The position numbers and the translations under genes were made by a program. From NCBI GenBank assembly GCA_027292925.1, contig JAPUGI010000012.1, positions 1 through 40,750 on the forward strand: a stretch of 40,750 nucleotides of DNA, given 5' to 3'. Below are positions 35,168-40,750 of the stretch, one piece after another (the first letter of the stretch is position 1; every line of letters starts with the position of its first letter). This stretch comes from Gammaproteobacteria bacterium. GTDB taxonomy: Bacteria > Pseudomonadota > Gammaproteobacteria > Pseudomonadales > Azotimanducaceae. Under the pieces are notes generated by a model. It searched no databases. It saw only the letters and a list, made by a program, of their open reading frames with translations, and was not told the DNA's origin.

Positions 35168-36781
35168 TCAGCTCGTGTGATCCGCAAGGATAAAACCGGC
35201 ACCTTTCTCAGCAATCATGACTGTGGGCGCATTGGTATTACCCGAAGTAATTTGCGGCATGATGGAAGCATCTATAACACGCAAACCTGAAATCCCGCGT
35301 AACCTCAAGCGGTCATCAACGACGGCCATGGCGTCATTACCCATCTTACAGGTGCCAACCGGGTGAAAGATCGTAGTACCTAGGTCACCTGCTGCTTTGG
35401 CCAGGTCCTCGTCCGATTGTAGTTCAGCACCCGGTTTCCACTCCTCTGGTTCATATTTTTCAAGGGCTTTAGCTTGCATGATCCTGCGGGTGAACCGGAG
35501 ACCCTTGATCGCAACTTCCCTGTCTTCCTCAGTCGACAGATAGTTAAGTGTAATCGCCGGATAGGTATCTGGATCAGGACTCTTTATTTTGATGTGACCA
35601 CGACTTGAAGGCCTCAAGTTACAAACTGACGGTGTGATTGCATTGAATGAATGCAGCGGGTCACCAAACTTGTCCAGTGATAGGGGTTGCACATGCCATT
35701 CAATGTTAGGTGATGTTTGATTGTCGTCACTCCTGGCAAATGCGCCGAGTTGCGACGGGGGCATGGTGAGCGGTCCGGTTTTAAATAAAAGGTATTCGAG
35801 CCCCATTGCCAATTTACCACGGAGCGAATTTACACGTTGATTCAGCGTGACGGTATTTTTGACTTTGAAAACCGTACGAACCTGTAAATGGTCTTGAAGG
35901 TTTTGGCCGACACCGGGGGAATCATGAACTACCTTTATACCTAGTGGTTGTAATAGATCTGCCGGACCGATGCCGGAAATCTGCAGTATCTGCGGCGAAC
36001 CAATTGAACCGGCGGATAGAATCACCTCACGCCTTGCTGATATGGTTTGAACTGCTTGCTTTTGTGTTCGGACTTGTACGCCCGTTACGCGTTTACTTTT
36101 TTCGGTTGATTCGATATTCAGTTTGAAAACGTGAGTATCTGTAATTACAGTCAGGTTCGCGCGTTTCATTACCGGACGTAAGAATGCTTTTGTTCCGCTC
36201 CAGCGAACACCGCGTTTCTGATTCATCTGGAAATAGGCGTTGCCAAAATTATCACCCCGATTGAACTCGTCGATCTTTGGAATACCGCATTCTTCCGCGG
36301 CGTCTCTCCAGGCATCAAGGATATCCCAATTCACACGGCGTTCTTCTACCCTGAGTTCTCCGTCGCTGCCGTGGTATTCGTTTGACCCATGTTGATAACT
36401 CTCGGAGTGTTTGAAGACTGGCAGTACGTCGTCCCAGGACCAACCTCTATTGCCCAGTTGCGCCCAGTGATCGAAATCGCTTCGTTGTCCGCGCATGTAG
36501 ATCATGGCGTTGATTGATGAGCAACCTCCCAACACCTTTCCTCTGGCATAACCAATCTTTCTTCCGTTTAAGCCCGCGTCGGGTTCGATTTCGTAGCACC
36601 AGTCAGTGCGTGGATTGCCAATAGTGAACAAGTAGCCTACAGGTATATTGATCCAGAAGTAGTTATCCTTTCCGCCTGCCTCCAGCAGCAGGACCTGATT
36701 GTTGGGGTCGGCCGACAGTCGATTGGCGAGAACGCATCCTGCGGTGCCAGCGCCGATGATGATGTAGTCAAAATCCTGCAA
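35168..36781 (-). CDS. GMC family oxidoreductase (choline dehydrogenase-like)
   Basis: [65 protein letters not shown]...[28 protein letters not shown]. Confidence 0.95.
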
Positions 36782-38037: not shown

Positions 38038-38161
38038 AAAGCGATTCGCCTGATGTTGAAGTTCTACCAGCTTTCTGACTCTGATTCTGATCACAGGGTC
38101 CTGACCCTATGATTCTTCCATAGAGCTGTACCCGCCGTCGAGTCGCAGCTAAAGTGAGTTG

Positions 38162-39160
38162 ATGAGCATCGAGGATCAACTGCTGGAATCGCCTGAACCC
38201 GCTATCCAATGGAAAACCCGTGTTTATGTCCTTGGCGAAAACCCCATCAAGCTTCGTGCGCTGCAAAAGAAGATCAAAACTTCAGAAACCGTACAGCGAT
38301 TACTGTGTGAACTAGGCAAATCCGGGGTAGTTTACCCGCCTCAGGCCTATGCAAAATGGCAGGGTGCCCACTGGATCATGGCAGTACTGGCAGATATCGG
38401 CTACCCAACCGGTGACAAATCCTTAAAACCTGTCCGAGATCAATTGCAGGAAACCTGGCTTCAGCAAAATTTCTATACCGATTTTGAGGCGACTTCAAAG
38501 GTGGAAGCCTATAAACAACAGGGCGTACCAGTGATGCAGGGTCGTCATCGACGATGTGCATCCCAGCAGTCAAACGCGCTCTGGGCGATCTTAAAGTTGG
38601 ATCTTGTGAACGATGAAACCCATAAACTCGTTGAGCGGCTGCTATATTGGCAATGGCCCGATGGGGGTTGGAATTGTGACAAGAACCCGGCCGCCATACA
38701 TTCCTCGTTTATGGAATCGATCCTGCCGATGAGGGCTCTGGCACTCTACGGAAAAGAGTTTAGCAACGACAAGGCAACGGCCGCCAGCAAACGGGCATCG
38801 GAGATCTTCCTGAAGCGTGAAATGTATCTCGGACAGCGATCAGGCTGTGTCATGCGATCCGAATTCACCAGCCTTCATTATCCGCTCTACTGGCACTACG
38901 ACATCCTGCATGGCTTAAAGGTCATCGCGGAAAGCTGCTTGATTCATGATAAGCGATGCACAAGAGCACTCGATCTTCTCGAAGGTAAACAACTACCGGA
39001 CGGTGGCTGGCCTGCTGAGAAGAAATACTACAAATGCACCGATGAAGTAGCTCCGGGTAATGATTATGTCGACTGGGGTGGAACCAGCAAGAAGAAAATG
39101 AACCCATGGATCACTGTCGACGCACTGTATGTGCTGAAGCAAGCCGGGCGTATAACCTGA
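38162..39160 (+). CDS. Prenyltransferase/squalene-oxidase-repeat (terpene cyclase-like) protein
   Basis: QWPDGGWNCDKNPAAIHSSFMESILPMRAL; LLEGKQLPDGGWPAE; NPWITVDALYVLKQAGRIT*. QW-like repeats; the stop codon lies inside the adjacent attC-like site. Confidence 0.75.
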   Translation: MSIEDQLLESPEPAIQWKTRVYVLGENPIKLRALQKKIKTSETVQRLLCELGKSGVVYPPQAYAKWQGAHWIMAVLADIGYPTGDKSLKPVRDQLQETWLQQNFYTDFEATSKVEAYKQQGVPVMQGRHRRCASQQSNALWAILKLDLVNDETHKLVERLLYWQWPDGGWNCDKNPAAIHSSFMESILPMRALALYGKEFSNDKATAASKRASEIFLKREMYLGQRSGCVMRSEFTSLHYPLYWHYDILHGLKVIAESCLIHDKRCTRALDLLEGKQLPDGGWPAEKKYYKCTDEVAPGNDYVDWGGTSKKKMNPWITVDALYVLKQAGRIT

Positions 39161-39230
39161 CAGCGGGCGTCTCGAAAAGCGTACCGTCACAGCATCCGAA
39201 GGCTGTGCATTAAACTTCATGTTATACGCC
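39147..39230 (-). other. attC-like integron recombination site 1
   Basis: GGCGTATAAC (39147-39156) and GTTATACGCC (39221-39230) are perfect 10-bp inverted arms. The reverse strand reads GGCGTATAACATGAAGTTTAATGCACAGCC...GTTATACGCC, with an internal GCACAGC/GCTGTG stem. Confidence 0.8.
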
Positions 39231-39236
39231 TATTCA

Positions 39237-39704
39237 CTAACCTAGCTTGGAATTATCCCATGAGACTACGGTCGATGGCTTAAATACAATCCATCTGCGG
39301 GTCTTGCCAGTGGCAGATGCGGTGTACGGTTTAACCTCTCCTTTTTCTCTTAACCCATGCTTAATCCCTAAGTTCATCTGTGCTTCTCGCAGCCATTCAT
39401 CCGCGTCTTCTTCAGCATTATTTTCCAGCACTTTTGCCCGACCATGCATCATTACGCCTTGAAGTTTTTGCCAACTAGTTCCAACGTCTACTAGAATTGT
39501 TGCAGTAGCATTTTTTCGCAAATTCACGACCTTCTGTCCACGACCGAAGATATAGACCAAACCGTTTGCCCAACCAAAAGTCATTGGCGTTAGGTTAATT
39601 TCTGTACCTGGGCCAATTGTCGCAATTCTAAGACGGGTTTCATTTCGCATGAGTTCATCAGTTTCCGAGGCTGACAATCTCAACGAGTCAGGTATTTTTG
39701 CCAT
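39237..39704 (-). CDS. PNPOx-like / FMN-binding split-barrel protein, predicted cassette gene
   Basis: TRLRIATIGPGTEINLTPMTFGWANGLVYIFGRGQKVVNLRKNATATILVDVG...KTRRWIVFKPSTVVSWD; the attC-like site starts 6 nt after the stop. Confidence 0.85.
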   Translation of the reverse strand: MAKIPDSLRLSASETDELMRNETRLRIATIGPGTEINLTPMTFGWANGLVYIFGRGQKVVNLRKNATATILVDVGTSWQKLQGVMMHGRAKVLENNAEEDADEWLREAQMNLGIKHGLREKGEVKPYTASATGKTRRWIVFKPSTVVSWDNSKLG

Positions 39705-39734
39705 CTCGTTGGTTCTCTGTCGGCTTCGTCGTCA

Positions 39735-40478
39735 TCACTTATTGCGTTTATAGACAGAAACATGGCTGGAACTCGAGGCAGTAAACGGCGATCGATCCCA
39801 TCCCGCCCACCGCTGATGCAAGTCGAGACCTGCAAGTTGCGCCATGAGATCGAATTCACTTGGCCAGACATAACGGACCGGTAGCGGATGTAGCCGCATA
39901 CCATTTTCTGTGAGTTCAATGTATTGGTAGTCAACAGTTTGTAGGGCTGAATTATGGACTGATGCTTCTAAAACCACCCTATCAATCGCAATGTGGACTG
40001 TCTTTAGGCTTTCACCATTCTCGTATTGTGACGGATCGGGTACGTATGCCTCGATCACAAACAAGCCTCCTTCAGAGAGGTGTTTTGAAACATTCTTAAA
40101 ACAACGGACCTGCTCTGCTTGGGAAGTTAGATTAAATAGTGTGTTAAAGACCAGGTAGATTAGATCGAAGGTTCCATCAACACCAACATCTGCCATATCG
40201 CCAATCGTCACATCGATGGCATCACCACCCGGTTTTTCACGGAGTTTGTCAACCATCTTGGCAGACGCTTCAATCCCACTCACTGACAGGCCTTGTGCCG
40301 CAAGTGGCAAGCCTATCCTTCCTGTGCCAATTGCGAGTTCTAGGATTGTTCCACCAGCAGCAAGGTTGGCGAGTACATCTACTGTCTTTTTTGTCTCCGC
40401 ATCCGATGGATTTCCGTATGATCTATCGTATCCATCAGCATTGTATTCGCCGAAACTTTCGGGTCCGAAGTCCTTCAA
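39735..40478 (-). CDS. Class I SAM-dependent methyltransferase, predicted cassette gene (TTG start)
   Basis: GGTILELAIGTGRIGLPLAAQGLSVSGIEASAKMVDKL; AGGAGGG upstream of TTG AAG GAC. Confidence 0.87.
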   Translation of the reverse strand: MKDFGPESFGEYNADGYDRSYGNPSDAETKKTVDVLANLAAGGTILELAIGTGRIGLPLAAQGLSVSGIEASAKMVDKLREKPGGDAIDVTIGDMADVGVDGTFDLIYLVFNTLFNLTSQAEQVRCFKNVSKHLSEGGLFVIEAYVPDPSQYENGESLKTVHIAIDRVVLEASVHNSALQTVDYQYIELTENGMRLHPLPVRYVWPSEFDLMAQLAGLDLHQRWAGWDRSPFTASSSSHVSVYKRNK

Positions 40479-40666
40479 GAAACCCTCCTATTTTGAGTCG
40501 CGGGACGTTTCATATCCATGCTAACAAGGACGCATAACACCCAGTTAGGTTGGCCGCGAGTGATTAATGGGAACGGCTTAAACTTCATGTTAGGTGTAGT
40601 CCTATTCATGCTCATCATTTTTTCGTAAAAACCCCCAAACTCTGCTGCAATAGCTTCCCAGTTCAT
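40475..40666 (-). CDS. Small predicted cassette ORF that reads through attC-like site 2
   Basis: MNWEAIAAEFGGFYEKMMSMNRTTPNMKFKPFPLITRGQPNWVLCVLVSMDMKRPATQNRRVS*; starts ~20 nt after the GTTAGGC of site 3 and ends as a TTGA overlap with the methyltransferase start. Confidence 0.45.
   Translation of the reverse strand: MNWEAIAAEFGGFYEKMMSMNRTTPNMKFKPFPLITRGQPNWVLCVLVSMDMKRPATQNRRVS
40532..40597 (-). other. attC-like integron recombination site 2
   Basis: Reverse strand ACACCTAACATGAAGTTTAAGCCGTTCCCATTAATCACTCGCGGCCAACCTAACTGGGTGTTATGC: R'' CCTAAC, L'' TTTAAGCCG, L' CGGCCAACCTAA, R' GTTATGC. Confidence 0.85.
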
Positions 40667-40683
40667 ACGGATAGCCTCGTGAT

Positions 40684-40750
40684 GCCTAACGCCCAGTTGA
40701 TCGGCCGCCGAAAAGGCGGTCCCGGCCAACCACGGAGTGGCTGGTCCGAC
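40684..40750 (-). other. attC-like integron recombination site 3, truncated by the window end
   Basis: Reverse strand ...GGCCGGGACCGCCTTTTCGGCGGCCGATCAACTGGGCGTTAGGC: R' GTTAGGC, strong internal hairpin CCGCC-TTTTC-GGCGG. Confidence 0.75.

Follow-up and report, generated by a model that had tools for sequence, protein, structure and literature searches.

Chromosomal integrons are bacterial stores that hold captured gene cassettes. The contig described here carries integron features in the last 1.6 kb of its right end, and this raises the question of whether they belong to such a store and how it lies relative to its counterparts in related genomes. The window, the whole stretch of DNA analysed, is an entire contig (C24; 40,750 bases) of the draft genome G000 (3.54 Mb in 401 contigs, with estimates of 89.4% for completeness and 4.2% for contamination). 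Its right end is very probably the worn edge of a chromosomal (sedentary) integron cassette array of the host lineage. The visible part contains one intact attC, one attC truncated where the contig stops, one half-site and one cassette coding for two enzymes; the assembly stops the array at position 40750. The element is of a known, ordinary kind. What stands out is that its array apparently faces the opposite way to those of its relatives at a conserved locus. The features are, from left to right:

35168-36781, minus strand: GMC (choline-dehydrogenase-like) oxidoreductase gene, start of the conserved flank, adjoining intI in relatives
38159-39160, plus strand: squalene-hopene-cyclase-C-like gene of the chromosomal flank (weak PF13243 match, below the cut-off)
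39147-39230, no strand assigned: palindrome read as site A, with 10-bp outer arms GGCGTATAAC and GTTATACGCC, one of which (39147-39156) is formed by the end of the cyclase-like gene
39206-39227, minus strand: left half (R''-L'') belonging to attC site A, GTATAACATGAAGTTTAATGCA; the left-arm matrix gives it 21.7 bits, behind one other place in the window
39237-39704, minus strand: PNPOx-like (PPOX class) enzyme, second gene of the cassette between sites B and A (PF01243, 31.8 bits, cut-off 28.1)
39735-40478, minus strand: class I SAM-dependent methyltransferase, the first of the two genes in this cassette, starting at TTG (PF13649, E=9e-13)
40532-40595, minus strand: complete attC site B, ACCTAAC ATGA AGTT(T)AAG ... 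CCTAACT GGGT GTTATGC (full-length match to model R1)
40538-40689, minus strand: cassette remnant of 152 bp running from the crossover point of site C to that of site B, starting with ATGAACTGGGAAGCTATTGCAGC (MNWEAIAA)
40684-40750, minus strand: attC site C, truncated by the end of the contig, with R' box GTTAGGC, L' arm AACT and a partial hairpin; the left arm is missing

At the end of each cassette stands an attC site. Its bottom strand forms a hairpin, and IntI cuts the R' box. Generic attC features gave no decision at this locus. An Rfam scan of the window, which is uninformative for attC, returned no family match, and among the single-strand DNA folds of the three sites that of site B was weak. 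A directional attC matrix built order-wide from intI-bearing genomes scored site B at 22.5, a level at which about 1.6 matches are expected per shuffled window. Relatives were therefore sought and a family-specific covariance model (R1) was built, which describes the two attC arms with 15 pairs and was trained on 50 attCs from related genomes and none from the window. R1 matches site B over its full length on the minus strand (51.6 bits, E=7e-12 on the window, E=6e-10 across G000), the E-values being approximate since the model is only roughly calibrated for them. The sole other match in G000 is weak (18.5 bits, on contig C27). Pairing of the R''-L'' and L'-R' arms, an unpaired spacer and an extrahelical base are all present at site B, which by its sequence is a full attC and a candidate IntI recombination site.

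Left and right arms were also scored with separate half-site matrices against a background of 10.2 Mb of shuffled sequence, where the maxima were 21.5 bits for the left arm and 18.8 bits for the right. The two best left arms in the window are at 40574-40595 (34.8 bits) and 39206-39227, and the two best right arms at 40684-40705 (22.1 bits) and 40532-40553 (21.5 bits), all four on the minus strand. The top right arm is that of site C, and no score that high occurs in the shuffled sequence; 27 nt of the site C hairpin are 93% identical to L168:6824-6850, within an attC of the relative G295. Site C is a real attC truncated at the contig end, of which the right arm and hairpin are seen. The initial annotation had placed three attC sites at this end of the contig, two of them with the shared arm TAACATGAAGTTTAA, and had named an attC covariance search as the way to check them. 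The strong match of a model trained without the window bears out 40532-40595, and the site at 40684-40750 stands as a contig-cut right arm and hairpin; of the palindrome at 39147-39230 the left arm alone survives. The shared arm is exact in both sites and is found nowhere else in G000.

The left arm of site A, at 21.7 bits, barely exceeds the shuffle maximum. Gapped alignment of its right half to the right arm of the relatives gives a background-level score, with 180 of 627 places equally good. Since the outer arm at 39147-39156 belongs to the terminal part of the cyclase-like gene, the L'-R' half of site A is read as missing or replaced, and the remaining left half as fused to the 3' terminus of this chromosomal gene. 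Homologues of the cyclase-like protein (58-62% identity) terminate at or near the equivalent residue and have no attC behind them. A perfect 10-bp inverted repeat (GGCGTATAAC/GTTATACGCC) links the half-site to the end of this gene; it exceeds the length of an R box and does not amount to a complete attC.

Sites B and C share the minus-strand orientation, as does the left half of site A, with cassette genes between them; B is the only complete site. The two minus-strand genes between B and A are 30 bp apart, so this unit is a two-gene cassette. The stop codon of its PNPOx-like gene precedes the R'' box of site A by 9 nt. GC content of the cassette genes is 45-48%, against 49% for the contig. 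A methyltransferase homologue in G281 (53-55% identical) lies outside any cassette, and chromosomal homologues of the PNPOx-like enzyme reach 66% identity; homologues of the two enzymes were considered as cassette genes elsewhere, and those inspected are ordinary chromosomal genes.

At the beginning of the unit between sites C and B stands ATGAACTGGGAAGCTATTGCAGC, with which a gene (MNWEAI...) in cassettes of relatives starts, and the unit then passes into attC sequence. It is 73% identical over 63 nt to the start of a cassette located after an attC in G295 (L168), and its sole ORF (40475-40729) continues through site B. The unit is, on this reading, a remnant that lost its gene and not an intact cassette gene. 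Minus-strand ORFs with short leaders, as first described for this segment, thus hold for the methyltransferase and the PNPOx-like enzyme and fail for ORF 40475-40729. Cassette circles lead to the expectation that an R'' box is complementary to the preceding R' box. In the relatives the R'' box is the exact complement (7/7) in 61 of 95 neighbours, and in the window complementarity is 6/7 both for C-B and for B-A.

The left arm TAACATGAAGTTTAAGCC, allowing up to two mismatches, is found in 21 of 151 genomes of the family, with many copies on one contig in several of them; several genomes with the motif carry IntI above the TIGR02249 cut-off. The exact motif also occurs in three viral contigs, where the model finds no attC, and was taken there as chance. 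In G337 the motif is repeated over 13 kb, up to intI, on a single 995-kb contig (C17), and in G322 (C15) a motif array likewise adjoins a full intI. G299, of the same genus as the window's host, has intI at the start of one contig and an array at the end of another. These sedentary integrons share the attC consensus RYYTAACATGMAGTTKAAG...CTTAACTGGGTGTTRKRY with the window and have intI, in contrast to the window, where none is visible. In both G337 and G322 the attCs are on the strand opposite intI, which is the normal integron arrangement. It follows from this arrangement and from the minus-strand attCs of the window that the array reads leftward and that intI, if present, would lie right of 40750. 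The cassette orientation had been taken to point there from the outset, and the two relatives with intI on the same contig calibrate that prediction.

The contig would then break off inside a sedentary-integron array whose minus-strand cassettes lead away from attI and intI, expected right of 40750. The visible edge would consist of the last two cassettes, the 152-bp remnant from C to B and the two-gene cassette from B to A. This edge would be decaying: the terminal attC keeps its left half only, the gene of the small cassette is gone, and the integrase is not found in the assembly.

The window contains no integrase, as the initial annotation stated, and no integrase remnant. Across the 401 contigs of this 89% complete genome there is no IntI above the TIGR02249 cut-off. 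The tyrosine recombinases of G000 give matches far below it; two are long (C113 and C371) and are probably XerC/XerD-like. A further one, a fragment lying at a contig edge (C10), was rejected as intI (33.7 bits, cut-off 265). An IntI with its additional domain beside attI, which marks a complete integron, is not found in G000 above that cut-off, and the contig ends inside the array. Contig C27 of the same genome (L193:1320-1393, minus strand) bears a further attC half-site, in which the left arm scores 35.9 bits and the right half breaks off within the L' box. It adjoins the C-terminal remnant of a tyrosine recombinase and a palindrome containing the 15-mer GCTCAACAACGGACA, which is exact at three places in G000 (two on C27, one on C218) and in none of four relatives. 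The order is an integron-rich group, in which 128 of 295 genomes carry IntI above the cut-off. In another genome of the family, G180 (C192:2036-2941, L088), intI has two in-frame stops (TGA and TAG), apparently an independent case of integrase decay.

Leftward from the array the chromosomal flank comprises cyclase-like, cupin and LOG-family genes, then GMC, VOC and MFS genes, and continues with isocitrate lyase, a second GMC, amidohydrolase and acyl-CoA dehydrogenase genes. The first GMC oxidoreductase is 80% identical to its counterpart beside intI in G299 (C108) and 75% identical to one in G337 (C17) about 5 kb from intI. Read in reverse, the order from GMC through acyl-CoA dehydrogenase recurs behind intI in G299, and the GMC-isocitrate lyase-GMC part of it is collinear in G337 as well, so that these two relatives share the chromosomal flank of the window along with its attC type. 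Cassettes of G299 and G337 run away from the conserved flank, whereas those of the window run toward it. Because the window cassettes point toward a flank that sits behind intI in the relatives, the integron, or its visible array part, was probably inverted relative to G299 and G337. The GMC gene on G299 C108 (L196:1441-3126) is itself inverted compared with the same gene in the window and in G337, and the locus has therefore undergone more than one rearrangement.

Compared in register, the collinear flank shows a GC skew of the same sign in both genomes (-0.056 in the reversed window, -0.048 in G299); the skew is near zero across the last 16 kb of the window. The shared sign implies that the window cassettes would be on the lagging strand and that cassettes of the relatives would occupy the leading strand, which is the preferred orientation (PMC11023631). 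This weak skew is suggestive of an array inverted relative to replication too.

The inversion is read from one contig end, which could be misassembled. A chimeric end, in which misassembly or misbinning joined an array piece to an unrelated flank, would explain the orientation conflict with G299 and G337 in a genome with an estimated contamination of 4%. It is nevertheless improbable, given that the attC type is that of the host's own family and that the GC content of the cassette genes is near that of the contig. Still less credible are ordinary palindromic repeats (REP-like) or terminators that have nothing to do with cassettes. Site A does lie between convergent genes, and its inner hairpin could serve as a terminator. 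Against this, the motif is not repeated across G000, where the exact arm occurs at two places and one other weak match is found; in relatives it is largely restricted to arrays, several of them adjoining intI, and a reversed-pattern control gives near zero in the same family genomes. Genome-wide repetition, which had been named as grounds for giving up the cassette reading, is thus not what G000 displays, and for site B the repeat or terminator reading is already refuted. The site B match, the non-repeat status of the sites and the arrays of relatives all support the first assignment of the segment as the edge of an integron cassette array.

For such an array edge two explanations of the missing integrase have to be weighed. 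Chances are about evenly balanced for a complete sedentary integron whose intI, to the right, was simply not assembled. The orientation of the cassettes predicts intI beyond 40750, and the assembly of G299, from the same genus, is split in the same manner. Arrays break assemblies: about one third of the 36 intI contigs fetched from relatives end less than 1.5 kb from intI, so a missing intI is not proof of absence. This explanation has to account for the decay signs at the visible edge and for a genome in which none of the contigs has IntI, though a contig may be missing. A true CALIN, that is a few cassettes in a genome deprived of integrase by loss of intI, is a serious possibility somewhat short of probable. 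It agrees with the absence of IntI above the cut-off, and the half-site, the gutted cassette and the 6/7 R boxes resemble decay; integrase loss was also common after experimental inversion of the Vibrio cholerae integron (PMC11023631). The genome is, however, 89% complete and broken exactly inside the array, about a third of the fetched intI contigs of relatives end close to intI, and draft genomes overstate CALINs (PMC9024848). The window resembles a CALIN in having attC sites in an assembly without integrase, but IntegronFinder 2 requires at least two attC for this class (PMC9024848), and here one is complete, one is cut by the contig end and one is a half.

In V. cholerae the engineered inversion of the integron led to more cassette excision and favoured inactivation of the integrase by selection (PMC11023631). 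The array edge described here is similar to that inverted superintegron in that its cassettes apparently lie against the preferred orientation and its integrase is unseen; the V. cholerae inversion was engineered, whereas that of the window is deduced from synteny and a weak GC skew. The absent integrase and the decay fit the outcome of the experiment, and an unassembled intI fits as well. That a natural array became inverted relative to both the locus of its relatives and replication, and then lost its integrase and decayed as in that experiment, is a rather unlikely course of events.

The analysis documents lineage-specific attCs, intI genes and arrays in a family sampled here mainly as drafts, and provides a comparison of the same locus, with G299 and G337, in which the orientation of the array differs. 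If both the inversion and the integrase loss are true, the locus would be a natural test of whether replication orientation controls integron stability.
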